Assembly: GCF_019131995.1 (NCBI RefSeq)
Contig: NZ_JAHONA010000024.1
Coordinates: forward strand, 1 to 33,199
Length of the DNA stretch: 33,199 nt
From: Collinsella aerofaciens
GTDB lineage: Bacteria; Actinomycetota; Coriobacteriia; Coriobacteriales; Coriobacteriaceae
Direction of reading: 5' to 3'
The notes beneath the pieces were generated by a model, which saw only the letters and a program-made list of their open reading frames with translations, ran no database searches and was not told the origin of the DNA. Every line of letters begins with the position of its first letter. Positions within the stretch are counted from its first letter, which is position 1. Shown here in pieces: positions 8,983 through 30,864 of the stretch. The translations under genes were made by a program, and so were the position numbers.

Positions 8983-8995
8983 GCCACCACCAATA

Positions 8996-9062: not shown

Positions 9063-9074
9063 GATTGAAGGGCC

Positions 9075-15703: not shown

Positions 15704-16467
15704 AGGAGCATGCCCCCCGCCACCAGCATGGCAAGCATCGCGAGCTCGGCCCATTGCAGAAACCATCCGGCCAAATCCCCCGTCACCCCGCCAAAGCGGG
15801 ACAGGGCAACATGGCGATACCACGCGAGCGCCAAAAGCCCCGCCACCGCTATAAGGGCGCCGACGGCCTGAGCGCACGCGACCATCCCTGCAGCCGAAGC
15901 AGCAGCGAAAGCGCAAAGCGGCACGACGATCTCCGCGCGCTTCTTCGCAGGCGAGAGCCCCGCGGCCATGCCGTCCGCCCGCGCGGCAGGCCAGCATTCT
16001 ACGGCGAGCCCCGAAAGCGCGCGGGAGAACACGAGCGAGCACAGAAGCGCGAGGAACGCCCCCGCCGTAAGCGGCAGCGCGGTGAACAGGGAAAACTGCA
16101 GAATAAGGTACACAACAACACCGATGACCCCGAAGGCGCCCGCCCGCGGGTCGTGCATGATCTCGAGCTTTCGCTCGCGCGGGGCCCAACTTGCAAGCGC
16201 ATCGGAGGTGTCGCAGAGCCCGTCTAGGTGGATGCCTCCCGTCACCGCCACAGGCAGCGCCACGAGCACGGCCGCGACGATGGTCGCGGGCACGCCGAGC
16301 AGGTTCGCAACGTGTCCCCACGCCGTCATGAGGAAGCCTTCCGCAAGGCCCACCAGGGGAAACGCGGCAAGCGCATGGGTTGACCCGAAATCGGTCCAGG
16401 CCGATTTCGGGACGGGGATGCGCGAGAACGTTCCGAACGCCGCGCCGATTGCCTCTGCTATCTTCAC
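15700..16467 (-). CDS. cobS: Adenosylcobinamide-GDP ribazoletransferase (cobalamin synthase)
   Basis: This 255-residue membrane enzyme joins adenosylcobinamide-GDP and alpha-ribazole (phosphate) to finish the nucleotide loop. It shows the family phrases FGTFSRIPVP near the start, GGIHLDGLCDTSDALAS, MHDPRAGAFGVIGVV (a metal/substrate acidic region) and FGGVTGDLAGW near the end, plus several hydrophobic helices. The GTG at 16467 overlaps the cobU stop (GTGA), with GAAGGA upstream. An in-frame ATG at 16578 would overlap cobU by 115 bases and is rejected. Its stop overlaps the start of the CobU-like/phosphatase fusion. Confidence 0.95.
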   Translation of the reverse strand: MKIAEAIGAAFGTFSRIPVPKSAWTDFGSTHALAAFPLVGLAEGFLMTAWGHVANLLGVPATIVAAVLVALPVAVTGGIHLDGLCDTSDALASWAPRERKLEIMHDPRAGAFGVIGVVVYLILQFSLFTALPLTAGAFLALLCSLVFSRALSGLAVECWPAARADGMAAGLSPAKKRAEIVVPLCAFAAASAAGMVACAQAVGALIAVAGLLALAWYRHVALSRFGGVTGDLAGWFLQWAELAMLAMLVAGGMLL

Positions 16468-17012
16468 CTTGTAGGTCCTTCGCCTTTCATCCACACGGGA
16501 ATCCCGCATACCACTTCGACTGCGCGGTCGGCCAGCGCCGCCACGCCCGCATTCACGCGCGCGAGCGCGCGCCTCCATGCCTCGGTCCCCTCATCGTAGC
16601 GCATCCCATCGGCGAACACGTCGACGGAGACCACCACCGTATACGCAGCGGCCTGAGCGAGCCGTTCGATGCCTCCGAGCACCTCGCGCGCCGCAGCGTC
16701 GGGGTCACGTGGGGACAAGCCGCCTTCCGCGAAGAGCTCGTTCGCAACCAGGTTGCCCACGTCCTCCAAAAGAAGCGTGCAGCCGCACGGAAGCCCGGGC
16801 ACTGCGGCGCCCACGTCACGCGTGCGCTCGAGGGTGGAAAACCCCTCGCCCTCGCGCATCGCCCGATGGCGCGCGATGCGGCGGGTGCCCTCTTCCCCGA
16901 AGGGCTCCATCGTTGCCAGGTACACGCGGGGGCCGTCGTGCCCGAGACACAGGGACTCGGCATAGGCGCTCTTGCCGCTCGCGGCGGCGCCGATAACGAA
17001 CGTCACCGTCAT
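16464..17012 (-). CDS. cobU: Adenosylcobinamide kinase / adenosylcobinamide-phosphate guanylyltransferase
   Basis: This 182-residue enzyme phosphorylates adenosylcobinamide and activates it with GMP from GTP. The P-loop is GAAASGKS (8-15), slightly unlike the usual GGARSGKS. The presumed guanylylation site is His49 in RRIARHRAMR. LLLEDVGNLVANELF and the closing CGIPVWMKG are further CobU marks. Its length matches the family, in contrast to the shortened copy fused to the phosphatase downstream. The ATG at 17012 overlaps the cobT stop (ATGA). Confidence 0.93.
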   Translation of the reverse strand: MTVTFVIGAAASGKSAYAESLCLGHDGPRVYLATMEPFGEEGTRRIARHRAMREGEGFSTLERTRDVGAAVPGLPCGCTLLLEDVGNLVANELFAEGGLSPRDPDAAAREVLGGIERLAQAAAYTVVVSVDVFADGMRYDEGTEAWRRALARVNAGVAALADRAVEVVCGIPVWMKGEGPTR

Positions 17013-18151
17013 TTCCCAGCCTCGAAATGCTCGTAAGCAGCCATGCCAGTCGCCGTGAACGTCTTCCCATCCCGGTACACGCGCAGCGCAGAATCCAGAA
17101 GGGGCAGATACGCCATGGCGCCCGCGCCCTCGCCCAAATGCATGCCTGCGTCGAGGGGTGCCTTTATGCCGAGCTCGCGAAGGAGCTCCTGGCTTGCGGG
17201 TTCGCTTGATGCGTGGGTGCCCACGAGGTAGCCCAAGGCGTTGGGGCACAGGCGCGCCGCGCACAGGGCCGCCGTGCAGGATATGACCCCGTCGAGGAGC
17301 GCCGGCGCCTTCGAGGCGGCGGCCCCCAGGTAGAAGCCGCACATCGCCGCGATGTCGAAGCCGCCCACCTTCGAGAGCACGTCGATCGGGTCGGCGGGAT
17401 CGGGCGAGTTCGTGTCGATAGCACGTTCGACCACGTCGCGCTTGCGCGCGAGCGAGGCGTCCGAGAGCCCCGCGCCGCGCCCGACGAGGCTCCGCGCGTC
17501 CGCCCGGATGAGCACTGCGGCCACCGCCGCCGAGGTGGTCGTATTGCCGATGCCCATCTCGCCCGCGGCGAGAAGGCGCACGCCGGCGCGGGCAAGCCCG
17601 CACGCGACGGCGATTCCGACCTCGATCGCGCGCACGGCCCCATCACGAGACATAGCGGGGCCATGCGCGATGTTGCCGCTCCCCCGCCGCACGTTCGCGC
17701 GCACCATGCGCGCGTCTTCTATGCCCCGGGCCATACCCACGTCGATGGGCACGACCTCGGCACCCGCGAACGCCGCCATGCGGCAGGCGCTCGTGGCCCC
17801 CTCGCACATGTTGCGCGCGACGGCTCGCGTCACGTCTTGCCCGCTTTGCGACACGCCTTCGGCAACGACCCTGTTGTCGGAGAAGAATACCGCGAGCGCA
17901 CGGGGGAACTCGGCCACCTCGGCGCTCCCCTGAGCTGCGGCGATACACGCGACGGCGTCTTCAAAGTCGCCCAATCCCCCCAAGGGGTGCGCGATGGAGT
18001 CCCACGCGGCGTACGCGGCGGCGCGGGCGCACTCGTCTGCGGGCGCGATCCGGGAGAGCGCGGCTTCGAGCACGGCACCCGGCGCCGACGAGAACGCGCG
18101 CTCGACTTCCTCGCGGATGCAGGCAAGCGCGGTTTCGGTTGCTTCAGCCAT
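17009..18151 (-). CDS. cobT: Nicotinate-nucleotide-dimethylbenzimidazole phosphoribosyltransferase
   Basis: This 380-residue cytoplasmic enzyme makes alpha-ribazole phosphate (or an analogue with another lower base) from nicotinate mononucleotide and the base. The family signature GEMGIGNTTT lies at 198-207. The catalytic glutamate is Glu341 in HLGEGAGAM. GFDIAAMCGF near 264 is also typical. The ATG at 18151 has GAGGAGA upstream and overlaps the cbiA stop by 8 bases. No genes for making dimethylbenzimidazole (bluB or bza) are present here, so the lower base must be obtained elsewhere. Confidence 0.95.
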   Translation of the reverse strand: MAEATETALACIREEVERAFSSAPGAVLEAALSRIAPADECARAAAYAAWDSIAHPLGGLGDFEDAVACIAAAQGSAEVAEFPRALAVFFSDNRVVAEGVSQSGQDVTRAVARNMCEGATSACRMAAFAGAEVVPIDVGMARGIEDARMVRANVRRGSGNIAHGPAMSRDGAVRAIEVGIAVACGLARAGVRLLAAGEMGIGNTTTSAAVAAVLIRADARSLVGRGAGLSDASLARKRDVVERAIDTNSPDPADPIDVLSKVGGFDIAAMCGFYLGAAASKAPALLDGVISCTAALCAARLCPNALGYLVGTHASSEPASQELLRELGIKAPLDAGMHLGEGAGAMAYLPLLDSALRVYRDGKTFTATGMAAYEHFEAGK

Positions 18152-19526
18152 GCCGTCTCCTCTCTGCGAACGACGCTGCGGCAGACGCGAACGCGCGCGC
18201 AACGTCGGGGTTCGTAGGATAGTACACATGCGGGAAGCCCGCCACCAGGGACGGGGTGGTCGTCATGCACGGCCAGCCCTTGTCGCGCCGGGGCTTCTGC
18301 GCCCAGAAGTCGCCGCCCGGGCAGGTGGACTGCCAGTAGTGGAACTCGTGCGCGCGGATGTGTGTGCCGCGCGGCCCGTAGAGACCGTCGCGTTGGGAAG
18401 CGAGCTCCACGTACCCGAAACGGGACAGCCTTCCCCCGTTCTCACTTGCGCCCTCAAGGGCGCCCGCAACAGGCCAGCGTCGCCCCTCGTTATCGGCGAT
18501 TTCGCGCTGCAGGTACAGAAACCCACCGCATTCGGCGACCGTCGGCATGCCGGATTCCACCGCGCGCCGCACCGCCTCGCGCATCGGCGCGTTCTCGGAG
18601 AGCTGCCGCGCATGGAGCTCCGGGTAGCCGCCTCCCAGATAGAGGGCGCTTGTCCCCCAGGGCAACTCGCTATCACACAGGGGGCTGAAAAAGGCCAGCT
18701 CGCAACCCAGGTCCTCGAGCGCGCGCAGGTTCTCCTCGTAGTAGAACGAGAACGCCTCGTCACGCGCGACGGCGACGATGGGCCGCGCTCCCGCGATCGG
18801 CTCCAACCGGTAAGGTTCCTCGCGGATATCGGGTGCCGTCGCCGCTATTTCGAGCAAGCGGTCGACGTCGACGCTCTTTTCCACCAGCTCGGCCATCTTG
18901 TCGATGCGCGCGGAGAGTTGCTCGACTTCGTCGGCGGTCACAAGTCCCAGATGCCGGCTTTCGAGCGAGAACGCCTCGTCGGCGGGGATATTACCCAAAA
19001 CCGCGACGCCCGTGTGCTTCTCGATCGCAGGCGCCGCGTAGGCGCAGGCAGCGGCGCTCGTCTTGTTCAGCACGACGCCGCGCACGTTCGCACAAGGCAG
19101 GAACTCGGCGATGCCGCGGATTACGGCGGCGAGCGATAAAGACGCCCCACGCCCGTTCACCACTAAAACGACCGGCGTTTCCGTATCGCGCGCAACCTGG
19201 TAGCTGCTCGCGTCGGCCACTCCGGGCGCCATGCCGTCGTAGAAGCCCATGACCCCCTCGAGCACCGCAACATCCGCGCCCGCGGCGCCGCGTACGAGCA
19301 GGGCGCGCAGCGTCGGGGCGTCGGTGAAGAAGCCGTCTAAGTTGCCCGAGCGCGCACCCACGACGCGGCGATGAAAGAGCGGGTCAATGTAGTCGGGGCC
19401 GCATTTGAAGGCCGCGCATGCAAGACCGCGGCGCGCGAGCGCGCGCAGGAGCGCGCACGTTACGACCGTCTTGCCGCTCCCGCTCGAGGGCGCAGCGACC
19501 ATGAAGCGCGGGATGGACGTGCTCAC
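18144..19526 (-). CDS. cbiA: Cobyrinic acid a,c-diamide synthase
   Basis: This 460-residue glutamine amidotransferase amidates the a and c carboxylates of cobyrinate using ATP. The N-terminal P-loop domain reads MVAAPSSGSGKT (9-20), followed by FKCGPDYIDPLFH and EGVMGFYDG. The C-terminal glutaminase domain has LGGGYPELHA, the nucleophile Cys in PTVAECGGFLYLQ, and IRAHEFHYW. All are diagnostic of CbiA/CobB. The GTG at 19526 overlaps the cbiET stop (GTGA) and gives normal length. A longer frame upstream is an antisense-type shadow of cbiET. Confidence 0.96.
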   Translation of the reverse strand: MSTSIPRFMVAAPSSGSGKTVVTCALLRALARRGLACAAFKCGPDYIDPLFHRRVVGARSGNLDGFFTDAPTLRALLVRGAAGADVAVLEGVMGFYDGMAPGVADASSYQVARDTETPVVLVVNGRGASLSLAAVIRGIAEFLPCANVRGVVLNKTSAAACAYAAPAIEKHTGVAVLGNIPADEAFSLESRHLGLVTADEVEQLSARIDKMAELVEKSVDVDRLLEIAATAPDIREEPYRLEPIAGARPIVAVARDEAFSFYYEENLRALEDLGCELAFFSPLCDSELPWGTSALYLGGGYPELHARQLSENAPMREAVRRAVESGMPTVAECGGFLYLQREIADNEGRRWPVAGALEGASENGGRLSRFGYVELASQRDGLYGPRGTHIRAHEFHYWQSTCPGGDFWAQKPRRDKGWPCMTTTPSLVAGFPHVYYPTNPDVARAFASAAASFAERRRHG

Positions 19527-20872
19527 CGGGCGCCGCCTTCCCCACCTGCACCACGCGCGCTGACGAGGAACACGGGGTTTTGCGCCTTCATAAGATGGTG
19601 CGAGCCTACAGCCTCGGCGCGGGCGGCCGACACCTGGCACGCCTCGAACCCATTAAAGCGCGAACCCGAGAGGAGCGCGCACGCCTCGGTGAGCGTTTCA
19701 ACGGTGACGCATGGCACGCACAGGCGAACCTGCGAGTTCTTCTCGAGCGCCGCCTCCACGATAGAGGGAAGCTCGCCCGCGCTCCCGCCGACGAACACGG
19801 CGTCGGGGACGGGCAGTTTCGCGAGCGCTTCGGGGGCGACACCGGGGACCGCATGCACGTTGCCGCACCCGAATGCATCCGCGTTCTCTCGGATGAGCCG
19901 CACGCCGGCCGCGTTGCGCTCGACCGCCCATACCGACCCCGCTCGCGCGACGAGCGCCGCCTCGATCGACACGCTCCCCGTGCCGGCTCCGACGTCCCAC
20001 ACGGTGTCGGTAGCGGTAAGGCGCAGCTTCGCGAGCGCGACGGCGCGCACCTCCTGCTTGGTCATGGGAACGTCGCCGCGGATGAAGAGCTCGTCGGGAA
20101 TGCCCGAGGAAGCGTACGGCCAGCGGGGGCTCGCGGCGCGGGATGCGCCCGCAGAGTCCGCCGCGGAAGAAGCCGCCGCGGGCGCAGACGCGCCGGCCGG
20201 CGCCTCGGAGGCTGCGCTAGAGCCAGCGGGCGACCCGGCGCCGCCTGCGAACTCGATAAGCATCACGTTCAAGTCGTCGAACGTCTGACCTGCGATTTCA
20301 CTTGCGGTCGCACAGGTGATGCGCTCGTCGGGGTACGACAGGCGCTCGGCCACCGTCACGCGCGCGTCCCCGAAGCCCGCCTGCACAAGTTCGCCCGAAA
20401 ACCGCGAGGGGTCTTCCCCGCCCGACGTGACGAGGAAGAGCTCACCTGCGCGCTCGGCCTCGGCCACGATGTCGCACGCCACGCCGTGAGCGCTCGCGAA
20501 GCGCCAATCCTGCCATGGACGCGCGAGGCGCGCGGCGAGATAAGACGCTGAGCTTATGCCGGGAATGACGCGCACGTCCACCTGCGCGTCGCCGGAGAGC
20601 GCCTCTACCAGGCGGCGCGCGCCGCTGAACAGCCCCACATCGCCCGTCATCACGACCACGGCGCGCTGCCACGACGCCGCATCGGTGAGCGCGGCGACGA
20701 TGTCCGCCGTCTTCACGAGCTCGCATCTCACCACGTCGGGCGGCACGTCGATGCCGGCAAGCGCGCGATGAGCGCCGATGACCACGTCGGCGATGTCGAT
20801 CGCGTCGAGCGCCGCGCGCGAGAGCAAGTCGGGGTTTCCGGGCCCCGCCCCGATGATCGTTACCTTTCGCAT
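19523..20872 (-). CDS. cbiET: Fused cobalt-precorrin-7 C5-methyltransferase / C15-methyltransferase-decarboxylase
   Basis: This 449-residue bifunctional enzyme is comparable to CobL. The CbiE domain covers about 1-209 (IIGAGPGNPDLLS at 6-18, MTGDVGLFSGA, VIPGISSASYLAARL). An Ala/Ser/Gly-rich linker spans about 210-255. The CbiT domain covers about 256-449 (IRGDVPMTKQEVR, SAM-binding VWDVGAGTGS at 291-300). It methylates C5 and C15 and removes the acetate carboxyl at C12, giving cobalt-precorrin-8 for CbiC. The 46-residue low-complexity linker is unusually long. The ATG at 20872 overlaps cbiH by 13 bases. Confidence 0.95.
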   Translation of the reverse strand: MRKVTIIGAGPGNPDLLSRAALDAIDIADVVIGAHRALAGIDVPPDVVRCELVKTADIVAALTDAASWQRAVVVMTGDVGLFSGARRLVEALSGDAQVDVRVIPGISSASYLAARLARPWQDWRFASAHGVACDIVAEAERAGELFLVTSGGEDPSRFSGELVQAGFGDARVTVAERLSYPDERITCATASEIAGQTFDDLNVMLIEFAGGAGSPAGSSAASEAPAGASAPAAASSAADSAGASRAASPRWPYASSGIPDELFIRGDVPMTKQEVRAVALAKLRLTATDTVWDVGAGTGSVSIEAALVARAGSVWAVERNAAGVRLIRENADAFGCGNVHAVPGVAPEALAKLPVPDAVFVGGSAGELPSIVEAALEKNSQVRLCVPCVTVETLTEACALLSGSRFNGFEACQVSAARAEAVGSHHLMKAQNPVFLVSARGAGGEGGAR

Positions 20873-21603
20873 GGAATCTCCCGATACCCGCGCGGCGTGA
20901 CCATACGGCCGCCTACGCGCTTCGTGCCCGCGTTGCCGACGAACACGGTGGTGAACATGTCGGCATCGAGCTCCCCCAGCTCGGAGAGCCTGCACATTCC
21001 CGACTGCTGCCCCTCGCGCCCGATGTTGCGAACCCAGCCGCAGAGCGTGTCGGGGGCCTTCCATTCGAGCATAATCTTCGCCGCGCGCGAGAGCCTGTCG
21101 GCGCGCTTTCTGCTGCGCGGGTTGTACAAGCAGATGCAGAAGTCGGTGCTCGCCACGGCGGCGAGCCTGCGCTCGATGACCTCCCACGGTGTGAGCAGGT
21201 CGGAGAGCGACACGACCGCGAAGTCGTGGGCAAGCGGGGCGCCGAGCACCGCCGACCCGCTCTGAGCCGCGGTGGCCCCGGCGATAACTTCCACGTCTAC
21301 ATCGGGGTAGTCCTCCGCAAGCTCCAGCACGGGGCTCGCCATGCCGTACACGCCCGCGTCACCGCTGCACACGAGCGCCACGGCTTCTCCGCTCTGCGCG
21401 CGCGAAAGCGCCAGGCGGCACCGTTCGACCTCGTGCATCATCGGCGTCGCGAGATGCGCCGCGTCGGGCACGGCGGCGAGCGCGAGCTCCACGTATTTCG
21501 TGTACCCCACAACGATGTCGGCCGCCTCGAGCGCGCGCCGAGCCGCAATCGTCATGCCGTCGGGGCCGCCCGGGCCAATCCCCACCACGAAGATCTTTCC
21601 CAT
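20860..21603 (-). CDS. cbiH: Cobalt-precorrin-3 C17-methyltransferase
   Basis: This 247-residue SAM-dependent enzyme methylates C17 and contracts the ring of cobalt-factor III. CbiH/CobJ motifs include VVGIGPGGPDGMTIAA at the N-terminus, VALVCSGDAGVYGMA, VEVIAGATAAQSGSAVLGAP and CLYNPRSRKR. The ATG at 21603 is preferred to the GTG at 21606 because AAGGAG is 5 bases before it. Either choice overlaps the cbiG stop. In the pathway it uses the product of CbiL, whose gene here is reduced to a remnant. Confidence 0.95.
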   Translation of the reverse strand: MGKIFVVGIGPGGPDGMTIAARRALEAADIVVGYTKYVELALAAVPDAAHLATPMMHEVERCRLALSRAQSGEAVALVCSGDAGVYGMASPVLELAEDYPDVDVEVIAGATAAQSGSAVLGAPLAHDFAVVSLSDLLTPWEVIERRLAAVASTDFCICLYNPRSRKRADRLSRAAKIMLEWKAPDTLCGWVRNIGREGQQSGMCRLSELGELDADMFTTVFVGNAGTKRVGGRMVTPRGYREIPCER

Positions 21604-22736
21604 CACCGCTCCTTAAACGAAAGTTCGATAGTTGCCTTGGAAAACGCGACGGTCACGCCGCCGTGAGCGAGCTTCGGGAAGATAAGTTTGCCCCCGCCCA
21701 CGAGCGCCGCGCGCTCGCACACGTTGTCGACCCCCACCGTCGCGCGCACGAAATCAGATGGCGAAACACTGCCTTCGACCTGCGACAACTCCTTTGCGGA
21801 ATACGTCGCAAGCGGGATATTGCGCGCGCGGCAGAAGGCGAGCAGACCCTCCTCGTGCGCCTTCACGTCGATCGTCGCCGCCTCGCGGACGGCCGAAGGC
21901 GAGATGCCCGCCTGCCCGCACGCGAGAAGAAACGCCTCCCCGATCGCTTCGGCGCACGCACCGCGACGGCACCCTATGCCCGCAACGATGCAGGGCACGA
22001 CAAGGCGAAGCGGCTCGGGCGCAGGCGCCTGCGCCCGCACGCCCGCCGGCTTCCCCGTCTCACCGGCGGGCACGACCACGCCCGTTGTCTCCGCCGCGCA
22101 AACGGACGCACCCGCATTCGCGCCAGCGAACGGCGACACGACGATATCGGCCCGAGCGCGGTCGGACGCAATGTCAACCCCCTCAGGCGGCTGTCCCGAA
22201 ATCGGCATGTCGGAATAGAGCGCCACGCGCCCGCCCGAAAGCAGCCGCGCCGACACTCGCTTGATGGCCTCGGGATTCGAAACGGCGAGCCCCGCACGGC
22301 GCGCCCACGTATCCACCGCCCACACGCCGCGGACGTCGGTCGCCGTGGTGATGACGGGAATGGCCCCTGCCACGCGTGCCACAGTTTGCGCCAGCTCGTT
22401 CGCACCGCCCAAATGCCCCGACAAAAGCGGGACGGCAAAGCGCCCCGCCTCGTCGATCGCCACAACCGCGGAATCGCTTGCCTTCGAGGCGACATGCGGC
22501 GCGATAGCCCGCACGGCGATGCCCGCCGCGCCCACGAACAGAAGCGCGTCCGACGCTTCCCACGCGAGCGCCGTCCATGCGCGCAGGTCGACCTTCCCCT
22601 CGCCGAACCCGCGCGAAACGGAAACGTCCCAGCCAGGGTCATCTTCACCTGTCTGCGCGCAATCGGAAAGCGCGCGTGCGATGCGCTCCGCCAACGCATG
22701 CCCCCTCTCAGTGAACGCTATGCAGGAAACCCTCAT
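21603..22736 (-). CDS. cbiG: Cobalt-precorrin-5A hydrolase
   Basis: This 377-residue enzyme opens the delta-lactone of cobalt-precorrin-5A and releases acetaldehyde, a step unique to the anaerobic route. The N-terminal domain is recognisable by LLFVGAAGIAVRAIAP and PLLSGHLGGANELA, followed by TTATDVRGVWAVD. The C-terminal domain has VAGIGCRRGAC and the late FSKATIEL. A Gly/Ala-rich central region (about 190-245) is variable in the family. The ATG at 22736 directly follows the stop of the cbiL remnant with no gap. Together with CbiD, CbiH and CbiK it marks the oxygen-independent pathway. Confidence 0.95.
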   Translation of the reverse strand: MRVSCIAFTERGHALAERIARALSDCAQTGEDDPGWDVSVSRGFGEGKVDLRAWTALAWEASDALLFVGAAGIAVRAIAPHVASKASDSAVVAIDEAGRFAVPLLSGHLGGANELAQTVARVAGAIPVITTATDVRGVWAVDTWARRAGLAVSNPEAIKRVSARLLSGGRVALYSDMPISGQPPEGVDIASDRARADIVVSPFAGANAGASVCAAETTGVVVPAGETGKPAGVRAQAPAPEPLRLVVPCIVAGIGCRRGACAEAIGEAFLLACGQAGISPSAVREAATIDVKAHEEGLLAFCRARNIPLATYSAKELSQVEGSVSPSDFVRATVGVDNVCERAALVGGGKLIFPKLAHGGVTVAFSKATIELSFKER

Positions 22737-22970
22737 CTAGCGCACCACCATCGTCGAGAAGTAGCTGCCCCGATCAGGCACATCGTCGAGCGAGCGGTAT
22801 ACGCGCTCGCCCGGAAGCCCACAGTCCTCTACGAGCTCGGCACCGTCGAAGGCGCCCTCCTCGCGAAGGATGCGTTTCGTGTCCGCAAGCGAGCGGCGCG
22901 CCTTCATGACCACCTTCGTCCCCGGCCAGCCGATTGCGCGGCCCACCCCGTACAGCACGCCTTTACTCAT
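22737..22970 (-). pseudogene. cbiL: Precorrin-2 C20-methyltransferase, internally deleted remnant
   Basis: This frame has only 77 codons where the family has about 230-240. Its start, MSKGVLYGVG, is the opening strand and first glycines of a CbiL SAM-binding site. It continues directly into GWPGTKVVMKARRSL, EDCGLPGERVYRSL and YFSTMVVR, which correspond to the C-terminal part of CbiL. About 150 codons, with most SAM- and substrate-binding residues, are missing, yet the join keeps the frame and no stop interrupts it. The start overlaps the cbiD stop by 8 bases and its stop abuts the cbiG start, so the deletion is neutral for the operon. It should be inactive as a methyltransferase. A small protein with another role cannot be excluded. 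Confidence 0.82.
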
Positions 22971-24147
22971 ACGTCGCCCCCAATTTCCCGATAACTGCAT
23001 CGGCGCCCGACGTGCGGAAAAGCTCGCGGCGCTCGGCGTCGAACACGACCGCGGCGATGTCGCATGCGCCCGCCGCGCGGCGGCGCAACCTGTCCTCGAT
23101 TGCCGCAGCGAGCGAGGCGCGCGCAGCGTCCCCCACGCCGGCGGCCTCGATTACCTCGAGCGCCGCCGTGGTCGTGACCGACGACATGATCTCGCGCACG
23201 GTCTTCGCGCCCGCGCCGGCCAAGGCCGCGTGGGCGGCCAGAATCTCCGCGCGGCAGTCAGCGGTACGCGAATGGGTGTCCATGATGCCGCCCGCGACCT
23301 TCACCAGCTTGCCGATGTGTCCCACAAGAAGGGCATTGGTAAATCCCTCGCGAACGCAGCAATCAATCGCATCGCCCACGAAGTTGGAGATGAAGACCAC
23401 CGGCACACCGTTTAGGTGGAAATGCCCCGAGATGAACTGCCCGCCGTAGTTGCCGGGCGTGAGCACGACTTCGCGCCGCCCCATAGCCGCATGCTGCCGG
23501 ATCTCGAGCTCGATGCTGTCGCGCAAGGCAGCGAGGCTGCGCGGCTCGACGATGCCCGTCGTGCCCAGGATGGAGATGCCGCCCTCTATTCCCAGGTGCG
23601 GGTTGAAGGTCTTTTCGGCAAGGGAAACGCCCTCGGGTACCGAAATCGTCACAGCAATATTTCCAGAAAAGCCGTGCGCGGCGCACACCTCGCGCACCGC
23701 CGAAGTGATCATCGCGCGCGGCGTCGCGTTGATGGCGGCCGCCCCCACCGGCTGCTCGAGCCCGGGCAACGTCACGCGCCCCACGCCCACGCCGCCATCG
23801 ACGGAAACTTCCGCTTCGCGCGTGGGCACGCCCTTGCTGCCCGCAGCGCCCGTGCCCGACCCCGCATGTTCCACGCGCGCGTACACGAGCACGCCGTCGG
23901 TCACATCGGCATCGTCGCCTGCGTCCTTTCGCACGGCGCACTGGGCGCACCCCTCGCCGATACATGCGTCGACCACGTCCGTCTCGACGGGCAGCCCGCC
24001 GGGGGTGACGATCGACACGCAGCCGACGGGCTTTCGTGACAAGAGCATCTCGCAGGCCGCCTTCGCCGCGAGCGTGGCGCAGCTCCCCGTGGTATAGCCG
24101 CAGCGCAGGCGGGTCGTCCCGGTATATATGTAGTGCTCGAAGGCCAC
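22963..24147 (-). CDS. cbiD: Cobalt-precorrin-5B C1-methyltransferase
   Basis: This 394-residue SAM-dependent enzyme methylates C1 in the anaerobic route. The hallmark N-terminal phrase CGYTTGSCATLAAKAAC is present, as are ISILGTTGIVEPRS, VVLTPGNYGGQF and GHIGKLVKVAGGIMDTHSR, all typical of CbiD. The GTG at 24147 begins one base after the cbiF stop and gives the usual length. No ATG lies between this GTG and the signature motif. Its end overlaps the cbiL remnant by 8 bases. Confidence 0.94.
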   Translation of the reverse strand: MAFEHYIYTGTTRLRCGYTTGSCATLAAKAACEMLLSRKPVGCVSIVTPGGLPVETDVVDACIGEGCAQCAVRKDAGDDADVTDGVLVYARVEHAGSGTGAAGSKGVPTREAEVSVDGGVGVGRVTLPGLEQPVGAAAINATPRAMITSAVREVCAAHGFSGNIAVTISVPEGVSLAEKTFNPHLGIEGGISILGTTGIVEPRSLAALRDSIELEIRQHAAMGRREVVLTPGNYGGQFISGHFHLNGVPVVFISNFVGDAIDCCVREGFTNALLVGHIGKLVKVAGGIMDTHSRTADCRAEILAAHAALAGAGAKTVREIMSSVTTTAALEVIEAAGVGDAARASLAAAIEDRLRRRAAGACDIAAVVFDAERRELFRTSGADAVIGKLGATYE

Positions 24148-24148
24148 G

Positions 24149-24940
24149 CTAGCTTCTCGCCTTCCGATACCCCGTGGCAAACGAAGGGTCGTAAAGCTTG
24201 CTGCGCTCGTACGACTCCGCTTGCGCGCCATCGTGCGCAAGCCCGCCGCGAGCTCCGAGCACGCGGCCCACCACCACGAGCGCCGTGCGGTCGATGCCCT
24301 CTCGCGCGCCCGCATCGGCGAGCGTGCCCACTGTGCAGCGCACCACGCGCTCCTCAGGCCAGGTCGCCTTGTACACGAGCGCCGCCGGCTCGTCGGAGCT
24401 GCGGCCCGCGGCCAAAAGCTCGGCGGAAAGCTCGGCGAGCATACCCGAGCTCAGGAAGATGACCATAGTCGAGCCGCTTTCCGCCATGGTGCGCATGCCC
24501 TCGCCCGCGGGCATGGAGGTGCGCCCGGAAAGCCGCGTGATCACGACCGACTGGCTGATTCCCGGCAGCGTGTATTCCTGGCGAAGCGCCGCCGCGGCAC
24601 CGCAAAAGCTCGACACGCCGGGCACCACCTCGTAGTCCACGCCGCGCGCGCCGAGCGCGTCCATCTGCTCCTGGATGGCGCCGTACAGGCACGGGTCGCC
24701 CGTGTGCAGGCGCACCACTTCCTCGCCCCGCGCATCTGCCGCGCACATCACGTCGAGCACTTCCTCCAAGGTCATGTGCGCGCTGTCGTAGACGATGCAG
24801 GGTTCCTTGCACTCAGCGAGCAGCTCGGGGTTCACAAGGCTCCCCGCCCAAACGACCACGTCGGCCGCGCGCAGAAGACGCACCCCGCGCAGCGTGATAA
24901 GGTCGGCGGCGCCCGAACCTGCGCCAACGATATGAATCAT
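24149..24940 (-). CDS. cbiF: Cobalt-precorrin-4 C11-methyltransferase
   Basis: This 263-residue SAM-dependent methyltransferase acts at C11 and is the first gene of the minus-strand run. Family marks are IHIVGAGSGAADLITLRG at the start, VVWAGSLVNPELL, RLHTGDPCLYGAI, YEVVPGVSSFCGAAAAL and TRLSGRTSMP. The ATG at 24940 follows a GGGAAGG Shine-Dalgarno-like stretch. The C-terminal 25 residues are basic and variable. Its leader contains the 26-bp perfect hairpin at 24975-25036. No cobalamin riboswitch was recognised on this strand. Confidence 0.95.
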   Translation of the reverse strand: MIHIVGAGSGAADLITLRGVRLLRAADVVVWAGSLVNPELLAECKEPCIVYDSAHMTLEEVLDVMCAADARGEEVVRLHTGDPCLYGAIQEQMDALGARGVDYEVVPGVSSFCGAAAALRQEYTLPGISQSVVITRLSGRTSMPAGEGMRTMAESGSTMVIFLSSGMLAELSAELLAAGRSSDEPAALVYKATWPEERVVRCTVGTLADAGAREGIDRTALVVVGRVLGARGGLAHDGAQAESYERSKLYDPSFATGYRKARS

Positions 24941-24974
24941 CCGAGCCTTCCCTTCCCGTTTCTCGTCGCAACTG

Positions 24975-25036
24975 TTTGCGTCGCCCTTCGCGCAGCGGGC
25001 AAAACACGGCGCCCGCTGCGCGAAGGGCGACGCAAA
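24975..25036. repeat. Perfect 26-bp inverted repeat between the divergent B12 operons
   Basis: Bases 24975-25000 are exactly complementary to 25011-25036 around the ten-base loop AAAACACGGC. It lies between cbiF (starting at 24940) and the plus-strand promoter near 25073. No T-run follows on either strand, so it is not a standard intrinsic terminator. In RNA of the minus strand it would form a very stable stem ending 34 bases before the cbiF start codon. It could be a repeat insertion, an insulator or a leader structure. Confidence 0.85.
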
Positions 25037-25072
25037 TACGCAGGCAGGAGGCGCAATGCCGCCCGCCCTGGC

Positions 25073-25101
25073 TTTACACGCCCGCAAGCGCCCACTATGA
25101 T
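25073..25101 (+). promoter_or_regulatory. Promoter of the riboswitch-controlled cbiK/transport operon
   Basis: TTTACA (25073-25078) and TATGAT (25096-25101) are separated by 17 bases, a near-consensus sigma-70-type promoter. Transcription would start near 25108, right at the beginning of the cobalamin riboswitch, and continue to cbiK at 25400. Confidence 0.75.
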
Positions 25102-25104
25102 AGT

Positions 25105-25282
25105 AACAGTTTCGGCAACGAGCATATGACAATCGGATAAAAGGAAATGACCGGCGCGGCGCCCGCACAGCCCGCGCTGGCTTGCGGAGGGAACCAGGTG
25201 GGAATCCTGGGCAAGGGACATTACTGTATAGGACGCGCGGGCGAACCGCCTCGCGCCCCAAGCCAGACTGCTTCGCCTTTTC
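25105..25282 (+). promoter_or_regulatory. Cobalamin riboswitch
   Basis: The leader contains the conserved core GGGAACCAGGTGGGAATCC followed by GGGACATTACTGTA (about 25188-25228). Downstream is AGCCAGACTGC (25261-25271), a B12-box-like element that would pair in the core. Boundaries are approximate. A small hairpin (25285-25299) and another, ACCCC/GGGGT followed by TTTTCTTT (25317-25340), could form the expression platform, the latter a weak terminator. The rest of the leader up to 25399 shows no reading frame with a ribosome-binding site. It predicts that high adenosyl- or methylcobalamin turns down cbiK and the transport genes. Confidence 0.83.
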
Positions 25283-25399
25283 CTCACGGCATCGCCGTGG
25301 CGTTAGCTCCTTGTGAACCCCGAGGGGTGCGCTTTTCTTTCGCTTGTGCCGACAAGCAACTGTCGCCGGGGGACCGGCAAACCGAGGAAAGGAAAAACC

Positions 25400-26326
25400 A
25401 TGTCCGACCAGATGTCACGCCGCGGCTTCATGGGCGCCGCAGCAACCGGAGCCGTCGCGCTCGCCGGAGTCGCGCTCGCGGGCTGCTCCAACACCTCCGC
25501 GAGTTCCGAGAAATCGAGTGAAAAGGAGAAGGCCGTGAAGCCGGTCATCCTCGTCACGAGCTTCGGCACGAGCTACAACGACTCGCGCCACATCACCATC
25601 GGCGCCATCGAAGACGCTATCCGCGAGAAGTACTGGCAGGACTACGACATCCGCCGCGCCTTCACCGCGCAGATCATCATCGACAAGCTGAAGAAGCGCG
25701 ACGGTATCACGATCGACAACATAACCGAGGCGCTCGACCGCTGCGTGGAAGACGGCGTGAAGGAAATCGTCGTGCAGCCGACGCATCTCATGGGCGGCCT
25801 GGAATACACCGACGTGAAAGACGAGCTCGACAAGTACGCCGACAAGTTCGATAAGATCTCGCTCGGCGACCCGCTGCTCACCTCCGACGACGACTACAAG
25901 AAGGTGGCCGCAGCCATTAAGGAAAACATGGCGTCCTTCGACGACGGCAAGACGGCGCTGTGCCTCATGGGCCACGGCACCGAAGCCGATTCCAACGCCG
26001 ACTATGCCAAGATGCAGGAAGTGTTCAAGAACGAGGGCTTGACGCAGTTCTTCGTCGGCACCGTCGAGGCTGAACCGACCTGCGAGGATGTTATCGCCGC
26101 CGCGAGCGCCGCAGGCTACAAGAAGGCCGTGCTCGCGCCGTTCATGGTGGTCGCGGGCGACCACGCGAACAACGACATGGCAGACGAGACCGACCCCGAC
26201 AGCTGGGCTGCGAAGTTCGTGGCCGCCGGCTTCGAAGTGACGTGCCTGCTCCAGGGTCTGGGACAGAACGTCGCGGTCGACGACATCTACGTCTCGCACG
26301 TGGACGACGCCATCGCCAAGCTGTAA
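25400..26326 (+). CDS. cbiK: Exported CbiK-type sirohydrochlorin cobaltochelatase (Tat lipoprotein)
   Basis: This 308-residue protein belongs to the CbiK chelatase family, which inserts Co(II) (or Fe(II)) into sirohydrochlorin. The chelatase domain starts near 47 (KPVILVTSFGTSYNDSR). The metal-site histidines are His192 in LMGHGTEAD and His255 in AGDHANNDM, spaced as in characterised CbiK. His129 (QPTHLMGG) is a further candidate ligand. Unlike cytoplasmic CbiK, it has a twin-arginine motif (SRRGF, 6-10), a hydrophobic core and a lipobox LAGC with Cys29. This points to folded export and lipid anchoring outside the membrane. GAGGAAAGGA at 25385-25394 sets the start. It opens the riboswitch-controlled operon before a BtuCDF-like importer. 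Periplasmic CbiK forms in Desulfovibrio are the nearest known parallel. Its role could be metal or tetrapyrrole handling rather than biosynthesis. Confidence 0.92.
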   Translation: MSDQMSRRGFMGAAATGAVALAGVALAGCSNTSASSEKSSEKEKAVKPVILVTSFGTSYNDSRHITIGAIEDAIREKYWQDYDIRRAFTAQIIIDKLKKRDGITIDNITEALDRCVEDGVKEIVVQPTHLMGGLEYTDVKDELDKYADKFDKISLGDPLLTSDDDYKKVAAAIKENMASFDDGKTALCLMGHGTEADSNADYAKMQEVFKNEGLTQFFVGTVEAEPTCEDVIAAASAAGYKKAVLAPFMVVAGDHANNDMADETDPDSWAAKFVAAGFEVTCLLQGLGQNVAVDDIYVSHVDDAIAKL

Positions 26327-26335
26327 ACTCGCCGC

Positions 26336-26407
26336 GCACGGGGCGCCGGTCGCGTCCCCGTGCAACGGGCATGCGCCTTCCCCGACTGACGGCGCACGCC
26401 CGTTGCA
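26336..26407 (+). other. Two overlapping hairpins in the cbiK-lipoprotein intergenic region
   Basis: GCACGGGG (26336-26343) pairs with CCCCGTGC (26356-26363). A 17-bp stem with one mismatch forms between 26361-26377 and 26391-26407. The two stems share three bases, so they are largely exclusive. No T-run follows. They could cause partial termination or mRNA processing that separates cbiK expression from the downstream transport genes. Confidence 0.5.
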
Positions 26408-26470
26408 TTCGCATCCCGCCCGCCCACCGCACGGCGCGGGCGGTCGGAGCGATTGAAAGGAACCCCCTCC

Positions 26471-27004
26471 ATGTTGAAGAAAACCCTCGCCTTCGCCCTG
26501 TCAGCGGCGCTTTTCGCGTTCTCGCTCGCCGGCTGCGGCGGAAATTCAATCGACAGCGCAAAGGCAAGCGATGCCGATTCCCAGGAAAAGACCGAACAGG
26601 CGGCCGATGCGCCCGAGGGCGCAAGCGCTGCCCCCATCACCGCCGACAAGGTGGCCGACGGCACCTATCCGATCACCGTAGATTCCAGCTCGAACATGTT
26701 CAGGATTGTGGACGCCCAGCTCATCGTGGAAAACGGCTCCATGCACTGCGTGATGACGCTTTCCGGCACGGGCTACGGCAAGCTCTTCATGGGCACGGGC
26801 GACGAGGCTGCCGCCGCGAGCGAGGCCGACTTCATCCCCTATGTGGAAAACGCGGAAGGCAAGTACACCTACGACGTGCCCGTTGAAGCGCTCGACGAGG
26901 ACACCGCCTGCGCCGCGTGGAGTATTAGAAAAGAGCAGTGGTACGACCGCACGCTCGTGTTCGAATCCGCCGGCGTCGATCTGCGCGCCGACGCACTGAA
27001 GTAA
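26471..27004 (+). CDS. Small lipoprotein with NEAT-like/iron-transport-associated-type domain
   Basis: This 177-residue exported lipoprotein has the signal peptide MLKKTLAFALSAALFAFSLA and lipobox LAGC with Cys22. A Ser/Glu/Ala-rich spacer (about 25-60) leads to one beta-rich domain (about 62-170, from ADGTYPITVD to WYDRTLVFES). The same domain pattern recurs at the N-terminus of the next gene product, including the spacing of V..G..., Y..F..P, LDED and the closing Y..TL.F. This suggests a shared ligand-binding module. By context (exported chelatase, BtuCDF-like importer, cobalamin riboswitch) it may bind a tetrapyrrole, corrinoid or cobalt complex at the cell surface. The NEAT-like label is by general pattern only. 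The ATG at 26471 is preceded by GAAAGGA at the right distance. An in-frame start at 26453 lacks one. Confidence 0.8.
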   Translation: MLKKTLAFALSAALFAFSLAGCGGNSIDSAKASDADSQEKTEQAADAPEGASAAPITADKVADGTYPITVDSSSNMFRIVDAQLIVENGSMHCVMTLSGTGYGKLFMGTGDEAAAASEADFIPYVENAEGKYTYDVPVEALDEDTACAAWSIRKEQWYDRTLVFESAGVDLRADALK

Positions 27005-27008
27005 CGCC

Positions 27009-28580
27009 ATGCGGTCGATTCTTCCCAAGGGGGAAAGCAGGAAGCGTCGCAGCATCGCGGTGCGCGCGATCGCCTGCGTTCTCGTCGCCCTGTTCGCGCT
27101 TCCCTTCGCGGGGTGCAGTGCGAGCCCGAACGCGACCGGTGGCACGGCAGGCTCTCAGGAATACACTGTGAGCGTCTCGCTCTCCGGCGGGTCAGGGCGC
27201 GCAAGCATCGCCTCACCCACCACAATTGTGAAGGATGGCGACACCTACACCGCGACCATCACCTGGTCGAGTTCGAACTACGACAAAATGACCGTCAACG
27301 GCGTGGACTACGCGCCCGTAAACGACGGCGGCAACTCCACGTTCGAGATACCCGTCACGCTCGACGAGGACATCGCCGTGTCGGCCGAGACCGTCGCCAT
27401 GTCGACGCCGCACACCATCGACTACACGCTCCACTTCGACTCATCCACCATGAAGGAGAAATCGGGCGACGATGCAAGCGGCGGCTCCCCTGCGGGAACG
27501 GCTTCAAGCGCCGCGGCCGACTTCCACAACGCCGATTTGGGCTGCGGCTGGGAGCCGACGGGGGCGCTTCAGCTTGAATACGCCGAGCACTTCACTGTCG
27601 ACGAGTACGAAGGCGGCCTGCGGCTTATCTGCATTTCGAACGGGGAGCGCTTCCTCGTGGTACCGCAAGATGCAAAGGTACCTGATGGGTTGAGCTCCGA
27701 CATCGCGGTCATAAGGCGTCCCGCCAACAAGGTGTACCTCGTGTCGTCGGCGACGATGTGCCTGGTCGACGCGCTCGATGCGAACGACAACATCCTCATG
27801 TCGGGCACGAAGGCCGACGATTGCTCGGTCGCGGGCTTCAAAAGCGCACTCGAAAGTGGGGCGATCGCCTACGGCGGCAAGTACAGCGCGCCCGACTACG
27901 AGCGAATATCGGCCTCGGGCTGCACGCTCGCCATCGAAAACACCATGATCAACCACACGCCCGATGTGAAGGAAAAGCTGCAGAAGCTCGGGCTCGTCGT
28001 GCTCACCGAACAGTCGTCGAGCGAGCCCGAAGCACTCGGGCGCGTCGAGTGGATTAAGCTTTTCGGCGTCCTGTTCGACAAGGAAGACGAGGCCGCGCAC
28101 CTGTTCAACGAGCAGAAGGCCCGCGTCGAGCAAACGTCGAGGCTCGCGTCGTCAGGTAAAACCGTGGCGTATTTCTACATTAACTCGAACGGGGCCGCCG
28201 TCACGCGGCGGGCGGGCGACTACGTGGCGCAGATGATCGAGCTTGCAGGCGGCAACTACGCGCTCGATGACGCGCAGGCGGCGTCGACGTCAGGTTCGTC
28301 AGTAACGCTCGAAATGGAGCGCTTCTACGCGACGGCGAAGGATGCCGACATTATCGTCTACAACGGCACCATCGACGAATCGGTTGCCACCTTGAACGAC
28401 TTCGTAGGCAAAAACGCGCTATTGTCGCAGTTCAAAGCCGTGAAGAACGGCAACGTCTGGGTCACAAGCGCCGACATGTACCAGCAGATGACTTCCAGCG
28501 CCGACATTATCGACGAGCTGCACGGGGCGTTCACCGGCGATGACGCGAGCAACTTCCATTATCTGAGGAAGCTCGGCTAG
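27009..28580 (+). CDS. ABC transporter substrate-binding lipoprotein (BtuF/FepB-like) with extra N-terminal domain
   Basis: This 523-residue surface lipoprotein has the lipobox FAGC with Cys36. A beta-rich domain (about 50-148) is related to that of the preceding lipoprotein. A substrate-binding domain of the iron/B12 type (Peripla_BP_2-like) follows from about 185 to 520. Visible landmarks include VAYFYINSNGAAVTRRAGDYVAQMIELAGG-type phrasing in short blocks, ADIIVYNGTIDES and VKNGNVWVTSADMYQQ, as expected for this class. It should deliver a chelated metal or corrinoid to the permease. It begins 4 bases after the previous stop and ends 4 bases before the permease start, so co-expression is clear. 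The ligand is not determinable from sequence. Confidence 0.88.
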   Translation: MRSILPKGESRKRRSIAVRAIACVLVALFALPFAGCSASPNATGGTAGSQEYTVSVSLSGGSGRASIASPTTIVKDGDTYTATITWSSSNYDKMTVNGVDYAPVNDGGNSTFEIPVTLDEDIAVSAETVAMSTPHTIDYTLHFDSSTMKEKSGDDASGGSPAGTASSAAADFHNADLGCGWEPTGALQLEYAEHFTVDEYEGGLRLICISNGERFLVVPQDAKVPDGLSSDIAVIRRPANKVYLVSSATMCLVDALDANDNILMSGTKADDCSVAGFKSALESGAIAYGGKYSAPDYERISASGCTLAIENTMINHTPDVKEKLQKLGLVVLTEQSSSEPEALGRVEWIKLFGVLFDKEDEAAHLFNEQKARVEQTSRLASSGKTVAYFYINSNGAAVTRRAGDYVAQMIELAGGNYALDDAQAASTSGSSVTLEMERFYATAKDADIIVYNGTIDESVATLNDFVGKNALLSQFKAVKNGNVWVTSADMYQQMTSSADIIDELHGAFTGDDASNFHYLRKLG

Positions 28581-28584
28581 CGCC

Positions 28585-29625
28585 ATGAGAAGCCGGCTTT
28601 CCATGACATACGACGAATCGGGGCGCGCCGCGCGGTGTCGCGTCGTGACGGCGCTGCTCGCTGTTGCCCTCATCGTGCTCGTCGGGGCCAACCTGTGCAT
28701 CGGGAGCGTGCTCGTGCCCGCAGACCACATCCCCGGCATCCTTTCGGGCGGCGCGGCCAATTCCATGGAAATCCAGATCATCTGGGAGATTCGTCTGCCG
28801 CGCGTGCTTTCAGCCGTGCTTCTCGGCGGGGCACTTTCGCTCTCCGGGTTCCTGCTGCAGACGTTTTTCAACAACCCCATCGCCGACCCGTTCATCTTGG
28901 GCGTCTCCTCGGGCGCAAAGTTCGTCGTCGCGCTTACGATGATCGTACTTCTGGGCGCGAACCAGGCCATGTCCTCGCCGGCCATGGTGGCCGCAGCGTT
29001 TCTGGGATCGCTTATCACCATCGGCTTCGTGCTCCTCATCGCACGGCGCATAAGTTCCATGGCCATGCTCATCGTGGCGGGCGTCATGGTGGGATACATC
29101 TGCTCGGCGGCGACGAACTTTCTCATCGCCTTCGCCGACGACCAGTCCATCGTGAACCTGCACAACTGGTCTTTGGGTAGCTTCTCGGGTTCGAGCTGGG
29201 ACGACATCGCGGTCATCGCGGTCGTGGTGATCACCGTGAGCGCATGCGTATTCGCGATATCGAAGCCCCTTTCCGCCTTCCAGCTGGGAGAAGCCTACGC
29301 GAAAAGCGTCGGCGTGAACGTCGCACGCTTCCGCGTGGTGCTCGTCCTTCTAGCGAGCATGCTCTCCGCCTGCGTGACCGCGTTCGCTGGTCCGGTGTCG
29401 TTCGTAGGCATCGCGGTTCCGCATCTCGTTAAGTCGGCGCTGAAGTCGTCGAAGCCCATCCGCGTGATTCCTGCGTGCTTCTTGGGAGGCGCCATCTTCT
29501 GCGCGGGCTGCGATTTGATCGCGCGCACGCTGTTCTCCCCCGTCGAGCTTTCCATCAGCGCCGTCACCGCCATCTTCGGCGCGCCGGTGGTTATCGCACT
29601 CATGTTGAAGAAACGAGTGAGGTAG
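28585..29625 (+). CDS. ABC transporter permease, BtuC/FecCD family
   Basis: This 346-residue polytopic membrane protein belongs to the family importing iron-siderophores, heme and cobalamin. Landmarks are IRLPRVLSAVLLGGALSLSG, NNPIADPFILGVSSGA (the most conserved stretch), NWSLGSFSGSSWDD, and PVSFVGIAVPHLVK near the C-terminus, which contacts the ATPase. About ten hydrophobic helices can be traced. The next start codon follows its stop without a gap. The cobalamin riboswitch upstream favours a corrinoid or cobalt-related substrate over iron, but this is inference. Confidence 0.95.
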   Translation: MRSRLSMTYDESGRAARCRVVTALLAVALIVLVGANLCIGSVLVPADHIPGILSGGAANSMEIQIIWEIRLPRVLSAVLLGGALSLSGFLLQTFFNNPIADPFILGVSSGAKFVVALTMIVLLGANQAMSSPAMVAAAFLGSLITIGFVLLIARRISSMAMLIVAGVMVGYICSAATNFLIAFADDQSIVNLHNWSLGSFSGSSWDDIAVIAVVVITVSACVFAISKPLSAFQLGEAYAKSVGVNVARFRVVLVLLASMLSACVTAFAGPVSFVGIAVPHLVKSALKSSKPIRVIPACFLGGAIFCAGCDLIARTLFSPVELSISAVTAIFGAPVVIALMLKKRVR

Positions 29626-30864
29626 ATGGGGGAATTCATGCCGCGGCCCAAAACGCTCAGAGGGGAGTCGAACCTCGAAACCCCGGTCGCAACGAAGGCT
29701 GACGGAGCGCCGCTTTTCCGCATAAGCGACCTGTCGGCGGGCTACGACAAGAAGGTCGTAGTCGAAGGCGTCGAGCTGGAGGTTCGCGCGGGCGACGTCG
29801 TGGCGCTCATCGGGCCGAACGGCTCGGGCAAGTCGACCATCTTGAAAACCATCACACGCCATCTGGCACCGCTTGCCGGCGCGGTCGAGCTCGACGGGCG
29901 GGAGATTTCCCGATGGAAGACGGCGGAGTTCGCAAGGAACCTTGCCGTTATGCTGACAGATCGACCCCGGACCGAGCTCCTCACCTGCCGCGATATCATA
30001 GAGGCGGGAAGGCATCCCTACACCGGGCGAATGGGCACATTCTCGCCCGACGACCATAGTCGGGTCGACGAGGCCATGAAAACCGCACATGTGGAAGAGT
30101 TCGCCGAGCGCGACTTCATGCAGATAAGCGACGGGCAACGCCAGCGCGTCATGCTCGCACGCGCCATCGCACAGGATCCGCGTGTGCTCGTGCTCGACGA
30201 GCCCACGTCATATCTCGATATCCGCTACCAGATCGACCTGCTGCGAATACTTCGCCACCTTGCGAAATCGCGGAATGTGGCTGTCATCATGTCCATCCAC
30301 GAACTCGAGCTCGCGCAGAAAAGCGCCGACAAGGTGATTTGCGTGAAGGACGGCCGGGTCTTCCGCGCCGGCGCACCCGAGGACATATTCACGCGCGAGA
30401 CGATTGGCGAGCTCTACGGCCTTCAACATGGCACCTTCAACGAGCGCTTCGGCAGCGTGGAAATTGGGCGCCCACACGGCGATGCGCACACGTTCGTCAT
30501 CGCCGGCGCAGGTACGGGGTCAGCTGTGTTTCGCCAGCTAATCCGGCAGGGCAAGGCGTTCTACGCGGGCGTTCTGCACGAAGGGGACATCGACTGCGAG
30601 CTTGCGCGCGACCTGGCGACGGAATGCGTGGCCGAGCGCGCCTTCGAGCCGATCGGGGATAAAACCATAGCCCGCGCCAAAGAGCTCCTCGTCCACTGCG
30701 CGCGTCTTATCGTGTGCCCCGCCGCCTTCGGCACCATAAACGCCCGCAACGCAGAGCTCGTCGAGTTCGCACGCTCGCATGGTATCGAGGTCATGCGAGC
30801 GTGCGAAGGCGCATCGGAGGATTCCAAAATTGGAGTGGGAAGGATAAACTGGACTTTCTTTTAA
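29626..30864 (+). CDS. ABC transporter ATP-binding protein (BtuD/FepC-like) with additional C-terminal domain
   Basis: This 412-residue cytoplasmic ATPase pairs with the preceding permease. The nucleotide-binding domain covers about 28-275: Walker A GPNGSGKST (63-71), signature ISDGQ (167-171, in place of LSGGQ), Walker B VLVLDE (186-191), and switch His225. The C-terminal region (about 285-395) is not part of a normal ATPase. It has a glycine-rich start VIAGAGTGSAVFR (291-303), followed by FYAGVLHEGDIDCELARDL and a second alternating beta/alpha stretch, reminiscent of a Rossmann-like regulatory domain. The start is either 29626 or an ATG at 29638 preceded by GGGGGA. The stop is followed immediately by an IS3-type transposase fragment in the same frame. 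Confidence 0.9.
   Translation: MGEFMPRPKTLRGESNLETPVATKADGAPLFRISDLSAGYDKKVVVEGVELEVRAGDVVALIGPNGSGKSTILKTITRHLAPLAGAVELDGREISRWKTAEFARNLAVMLTDRPRTELLTCRDIIEAGRHPYTGRMGTFSPDDHSRVDEAMKTAHVEEFAERDFMQISDGQRQRVMLARAIAQDPRVLVLDEPTSYLDIRYQIDLLRILRHLAKSRNVAVIMSIHELELAQKSADKVICVKDGRVFRAGAPEDIFTRETIGELYGLQHGTFNERFGSVEIGRPHGDAHTFVIAGAGTGSAVFRQLIRQGKAFYAGVLHEGDIDCELARDLATECVAERAFEPIGDKTIARAKELLVHCARLIVCPAAFGTINARNAELVEFARSHGIEVMRACEGASEDSKIGVGRINWTFF

Follow-up and report, generated by a model that had tools for sequence, protein, structure and literature searches.

In-frame deletion of cbiL in a B12 cassette exchanged between Collinsella and Eggerthellaceae

An open reading frame of 77 codons, situated between cbiD and cbiG in the B12 cluster of Collinsella aerofaciens, is a remnant of cbiL in which residues 1–10 are joined to about residues 163–229 of a 229-residue CbiL. 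The window—the whole stretch of 33,199 nucleotides that was analyzed—bears this remnant within a cassette exchanged between Collinsella and Eggerthellaceae, and the loss of cbiL from this cassette is recurrent, with at least three in-frame deletion classes (456, 315, and 285 bp). Judging from the sequence, a functionless remnant is the best-supported reading of the frame, and we consider it fairly probable that it represents a loss-of-function CbiL in hosts that do not synthesize precorrin-2 and are left with corrinoid salvage. Carriers of a deleted cassette probably cannot build B12 from scratch.

The cbiL remnant and its junction

The TIGR01467 profile (CobI/CbiL, NCBIfam) matches the 77-residue product solely at profile positions 162–229 of 230 and with 40.9 bits, the curated cut-off being 163.25 bits. 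By this measure, the product falls outside the CbiL/CobI family, as it scores below the cut-off and does not cover the domain end to end. Aligned with full-length CbiL, it lacks exactly 456 bp in frame relative to the intact allele of record L002 (genome G318), which bears out the claim of the first-pass annotation that about 150 codons had been deleted internally, the catalytic part being lost. An imperfect repeat, GTGGGC/GTGCGC, marks the join. The segments GTGPGDP, LNLGDPSIY, and PGVPSF—presumably the SAM-binding segments of the CbiL family—all lie within the lost residues 11–162, which again places the product outside the family. The same residues hold the best-conserved segments in an alignment with solved C20-methyltransferases (PDB 2qbu, 8xj3, 2e0k). 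With the precorrin-2/cobalt-factor II C20-methyltransferase CbiL/CobI (TIGR01467), the remnant hence shares both of its ends and the operon place, but differs by the missing stretch between them. Both junctions with the neighboring genes are preserved, as had also been claimed: the end of cbiD still overlaps the start of cbiL by 8 bp, and the cbiL stop adjoins the cbiG start as TAG–ATG.

It is very unlikely, with a probability close to negligible, that the deletion in the window reflects a fault of assembly or sequencing, since the same 456-bp deletion is found in 12 Collinsella genomes and in record L001. Other deletions occur elsewhere, and the exact repeats of cbiL whose copies lie 30 or more bases apart do not exceed 10 bp.

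Gene content of the cluster

Table 1 Features of the B12 cluster and its surroundings, in coordinates of the window
Feature	Position	Strand	Basis and remarks
Transferred B12 cassette	9077..30828	.	97–99% identity edges and empty site; ~21.75 kb
cbiJ, cbiC, cobO, cbiP, aminotransferase (cobD-like), cbiB	9092..19500	-	Pfam families
cobC/cobU-like, cobS, cobU, cobT, cbiA	also within 9092..19500	-	Pfam families
cbiET fusion (start approximate)	19523..20870	-	TIGR02467 and TIGR02469 above cut-off
cbiH	20860..21606	-	TIGR01466 above cut-off
cbiG	21603..22736	-	NF004466, 245 bits, below cut-off of 326; start adjoins cbiL stop
cbiL remnant	22737..22970	-	TIGR01467 match and 456-bp in-frame deletion vs intact alleles
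Approximate deletion junction	22940..22943	-	Computed breakpoint range; GTGGGC/GTGCGC microhomology, at about base 28–30 of the frame
cbiD (start approximate)	22963..24150	-	TIGR00312, 387 bits; end overlaps cbiL by 8 bp
cbiF (start approximate)	24149..24942	-	TIGR01465 above cut-off
cbiK cobalt chelatase	25400..26326	+	PF06180; N-terminus read from sequence
ABC importer: lipoprotein, binding protein, FecCD permease, ATPase	26471..30864	+	PF01497, PF01032, PF00005

The N-terminus of CbiK bears what we take to be a Tat/lipobox-like signal. CbiK is possibly an exported lipoprotein beside the ABC importer, and a tetrapyrrole precursor could conceivably be taken up. The lipoprotein encoded by the first importer gene shows a NEAT match below the cut-off. 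Among the genomes compared, the one nearest to the window is of Collinsella type (G001) and shares 50% of sampled 31-mers with it. Eggerthellaceae had been proposed as reference relatives; the closest named loci turned out to be mostly Collinsella, though Eggerthellaceae carry the same cassette.

A cassette exchanged between families

The B12 cluster is an imported cassette that has been exchanged between Collinsella and Eggerthellaceae. From 9077 to about 30828, the window is ~97–99% identical to Ellagibacter, Gordonibacter (G365, record L004), G178, and G318 where these are covered. The edges are sharp, with the left one at 9077 (9092 in G178) and the right one at 30816–30828. In two other Collinsella, G033 and G007, the site is empty: the left flank, which ends at 9062, is separated by only 16–20 bp from the right flank, which starts at 30954. 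In the ring genes, Collinsella differ from the two Eggerthellaceae compared by a synonymous divergence of 0.046 and the deleted strains from one another by 0.054, vs 0.158 in the flanking genes of these strains. A query with the left flanking permease matched 7 of 12 cluster-negative Collinsella, G033 and G007 among them.

At the right edge, several Collinsella carry a transposase remnant that is shorter in the window; the piece in G023 corresponds to rve (34.6 vs 32.6 bits). The left-edge piece in relatives has no Pfam match and is read as IstA-like. Just left of the cassette edge, an imperfect inverted repeat (8991–9067, 35-nt arms, 80% complementary) can be appreciated, which also occurs in other Collinsella where the site is empty.

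Recurrence of the deletion in Coriobacteriia

A CbiL match at E 1e-20 or better is present in 58 of 396 Coriobacteriia genomes. Twenty of the 396 bear a near-identical cluster, with cbiL intact in 6 and deleted in frame in 14—12 Collinsella lacking 456 bp, an Ellagibacter (G227, record L014) lacking 285 bp, and a member of the Eggerthellaceae (G178) lacking 315 bp. The other 38 matches are divergent and nearly full length, and the count of 0/38 deletions among them is biased, since the threshold of E 1e-20 would pass over a divergent remnant. Within the genus Collinsella, 17 of 43 genomes have a CbiL match: 12 show the 77-codon form, four a near-identical full-length form, and one a divergent full-length form (G039). 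With L001 and the window added, which both carry the 456-bp form, the deleted near-identical clusters amount to 16 of 22.

The comparison of related strains that had been suggested thus yields four near-identical intact cbiL genes in Collinsella next to 12 deleted ones. It also lends no support to the idea of a recent recombination event, as the deletion is not private to the window (12/16 near-identical Collinsella clusters) and the diversity at the junction is undiminished. The 14 clusters of the 456-bp form show two junction spellings, as seven follow the GTGGGC type (with GTAGGC in one case) and seven the GTGCGC type, which makes either one or two origins of this form possible. For G178, the allele was read directly: its cbiL spans 375 instead of 690 bases including the stop, which is the 315-bp deletion, and cbiL harbors an exact repeat of 9 bp whose copies are spaced 315 apart.

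Metagenome-derived CbiL adds forms of 124 and 134 residues, which account for 62 and 93 of the first 212 proteins returned—counts among the matches listed in a clustered database that are not usable as frequencies. Rare other lengths are also found among the metagenome-derived matches listed. Singleton forms (e.g., those of 117, 201, 214, 217, and 224 residues, along with frame-shifted ones) were left out of the established alleles, since short forms of cbiH occur in single contigs too. The cbiH control, which covers the best 120 of 7,999 matches, is weak, as large deletions would rank below them.

Intact and deleted cbiL might also be alternative states in a recombining cassette pool, where regain by exchange keeps the ring genes healthy. 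Near-identical intact and deleted alleles indeed coexist in Collinsella and in the genus to which G227 and G318 belong, the similarity along the cassette is mosaic in pairs, and neither the junction types nor the intact state form one group on trees of neighboring genes—trees that are, however, poorly resolved. We nevertheless regard this explanation as rather unlikely: short and intact alleles share just one variant position beside the junction (codon 34), which argues against frequent exchange there, and the advantage of the intact state would be unclear, as HemB, HemC, and SUMT are missing from intact Collinsella as well.

Repeats and retention of the frame

Most imperfect repeats in the GC-rich cassette genes keep codon phase—83% of them in cbiL and a share of 0.52–0.95 in 13 other cassette genes. 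Hence, an in-frame deletion is partly a matter of geometry. The earlier proposal that the in-frame join reflects selection for downstream expression is plausible, yet loses some of its force, as part of the effect is expected from the repeats. The repeat density of cbiL is 50 per kb squared and lies inside the range of 32–63 of the same 13 genes. A mutational hotspot as the sole cause of the loss was rejected, since both density and in-phase share stay within the ranges of the other genes. cbiL accounts for 8.4% of the total length of the ring genes, and if all of these were equally expendable, the chance of finding all three deletion classes there would be 0.06%. The loss hence looks specific to cbiL.

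A second CbiL and the missing precursor genes

Searches with full-length CbiL and PF00590 found no second CbiL in the 12 deleted Collinsella. Each of these bears four TP-methylases—CbiF, CbiH, CbiE, and one distant copy that is read as RsmI—and the five Collinsella with full-length CbiL bear five each. A replacement cbiL elsewhere in the genome was rejected on the searches of these 12 relatives with the same deletion, and to this extent the expectation that the ring pathway is blocked unless a second cbiL exists holds.

The further claim that the pathway is otherwise complete does not hold for this lineage. HemB and HemC were found in 0 of 17 cluster-bearing Collinsella (16 near-identical, intact or deleted, and the divergent G039), and no SUMT is among the TP-methylases of these 17. 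None of the 20 genomes with a near-identical cluster has a SUMT over the cut-off, which was seen in 16 of the 58 searched Coriobacteriia with a CbiL match. The HemB and HemC searches gave clear matches in the Gordonibacter genome, whose hem locus contains a run of N, and none in the Ellagibacter genome.

Among the 38 genomes whose CbiL is divergent and full length, 21 have no HemC, and of the 19 that bear a near-identical cluster but no HemC, 5 retain an intact cbiL. A lack of precursor synthesis is, therefore, not a sufficient cause of the cbiL loss. As a side observation, SUMT is over the cut-off in none of the same 21 genomes without HemC (G039, record L087, and 20 others); it is common in Coriobacteriia to carry corrin-ring genes but no precursor synthesis.

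Selection on the remaining genes

Leaving aside assembly gaps, the ends of loci, genes with variable ends, and the weak matches in G039, the other genes are open in the 22 clusters checked, namely 17 Collinsella (including the divergent G039), Gordonibacter, Ellagibacter, L001, L002, and the window. The cluster genes of G178 are open as far as the sequence was read. An apparent stop in cobT was dismissed, as a direct check of the gene shows none, and is taken for a codon with several changes. One Collinsella with intact cbiL, G023 (record L085), carries an in-frame stop in a btuD-like ABC ATPase gene.

Changes private to the deleted strains—absent from 7 other alleles, so that a part may be older or imported—show an omega of 0.16–0.40 in the eight other ring genes and of 0.22–0.57 in the late genes. 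These eight ring genes bear 0 stops in the deleted strains, where ~26 would be expected if neutral, and cbiC and cbiJ, which close the operon, bear 0 vs ~4.9. Missense changes of the deleted strains avoid family-conserved positions in cbiF, cbiD, cbiG, cbiH, cbiET, and cbiK (AUC 0.69–0.81) and likewise in cbiA (AUC 0.67). This constraint on the other ring genes argues against loss with mere salvage left, and most of all in cbiC and cbiJ, since polarity should give no protection at the operon end. None of the explanations offered here accounts well for this steady constraint on the ring enzymes other than CbiL.

Such constraint would be accommodated, operon end included, if the ring enzymes were still used and CbiL alone were dispensable, either because a C20-methylated intermediate from beyond the CbiL step is taken up or because an unrecognized C20 methylase acts. 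The deletion haplotypes, which are as diverse as the remaining cassette, and the confinement of the loss to cbiL with its small share of the ring-gene length point the same way. Nonetheless, we find this explanation doubtful, and consider it quite unlikely that the loss of cbiL is recurrent, long-lived, and selected, with rings finished from a C20-methylated intermediate supplied by neighbors or via such an unrecognized enzyme. To our knowledge, uptake of a C20-methylated intermediate past CbiL is not known. There is no candidate enzyme, as only four TP-methylases are present in the deleted genomes, and a compensatory change elsewhere was rejected, as none of 3,530 residue tests (best p 4e-4) revealed a residue fixed with the deletion. 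In addition, C. aerofaciens is recorded, in passages of PMC6593275, as requiring B12.

The remnant itself could be a functional small protein, e.g., one that acts as a structural partner or as an inhibitor of a ring enzyme. It is open in 14/14 clusters of the 456-bp type, and its private changes, whose status rests on 7 comparison alleles, comprise 22 synonymous and 9 nonsynonymous ones (omega 0.17). The nonsynonymous share of 9/31 compares with 70% expected under neutral drift (P 3e-6), and near the junction it is 2/9 (P 0.004). However, missense changes in the remnant do not avoid conserved positions, with an AUC of 0.42 for 9 genome positions, 0.49 for the 77-residue, and 0.51 for the 124-residue database forms, and different deletion forms persist; a functional small protein hence appears highly improbable. 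The 134-residue form shows a weak avoidance (AUC 0.59, p 0.044), which together with the nonsynonymous deficit argues against a functionless remnant.

Synonymous diversity in the remnant is 0.064 for A–A and 0.052 for B–B pairs vs 0.015–0.058 in other genes. A recent spread of one deletion block thus finds no support, this diversity being as high as elsewhere in the cassette. Some B–B bins just downstream in cbiG are low (0.014–0.018, with 0.018–0.028 between families there), and there may be some local sharing among type B strains.

A possible course of events

Under the favored reading of a loss-of-function remnant with salvage left, the ~21.75-kb cassette was exchanged between Eggerthellaceae and Collinsella, and deletions between short, mostly codon-phased repeats would have removed most of CbiL in hosts without precorrin-2—at least three times. 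Losing the first SAM-using committed step may be tolerated or even favored where the precursor is lacking, which is perhaps why cbiL was hit rather than another ring gene. In-frame products might persist because the repeats favor codon phase and because cbiL lies in a long operon where its translation is apparently coupled to that of cbiD and cbiG, a coupling that is plausible since cbiL abuts or overlaps both genes. The later operon genes cbiA, cobT, cobU, cobS, cbiB, the cobD-like gene, and cbiP would serve corrinoid salvage: the cell is expected to import corrinoids via the adjacent ABC transporter and to finish them, without making B12 de novo.

Relation to published systems

Passages of Rodionov et al. 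(PMC6593275) record that C. aerofaciens needs B12 even though its gene set counts as "complete", and passages of Magnusdottir et al. (PMC4403557) predict B12 production, among the Actinobacteria of their gut set, for C. aerofaciens ATCC 25986 and G. pamelaeae only. This putative B12 producer or precorrin-2 auxotroph corresponds to the present case in genus, kind of gene set, and B12 requirement. The requirement, as recorded there, fits a broken cbiL with salvage: cbiL is broken in 12 of 16 Collinsella with the cassette, and the searches found HemB, HemC, and SUMT in 0/16, which offers a candidate explanation. It also cautions that remnants may pass as genes when gene presence is called. These passages of both papers make no mention of a cbiL deletion, of its recurrence, or of transfer across families, and neither a cbiL deletion in Collinsella nor a cross-family transfer of the cassette was found in the literature titles and abstracts examined. 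The repeated loss of one gene next to a constrained ring branch makes the sharing of partial corrin pathways among gut bacteria testable. If neighbors did supply the intermediate, the B12 pathway would be divided between gut bacteria at cobalt-factor III.

Tetrapyrrole precursor salvagers, as described in passages of PMC6461909, miss the early tetrapyrrole genes and have most ring and loop genes. The same is seen here, with HemC and HemB in 0/17 cluster-bearing Collinsella and SUMT absent. However, such salvagers need a complete ring pathway, whereas here cbiL is broken in most cassette genomes and has no other copy in the 12 relatives with the same deletion. Cobinamide or corrinoid salvagers, described in the same passages, possess the loop-assembly genes and lack all or most ring genes; in the cassette of the window, loop and import genes are present, most ring genes are kept, and cbiL alone is broken.
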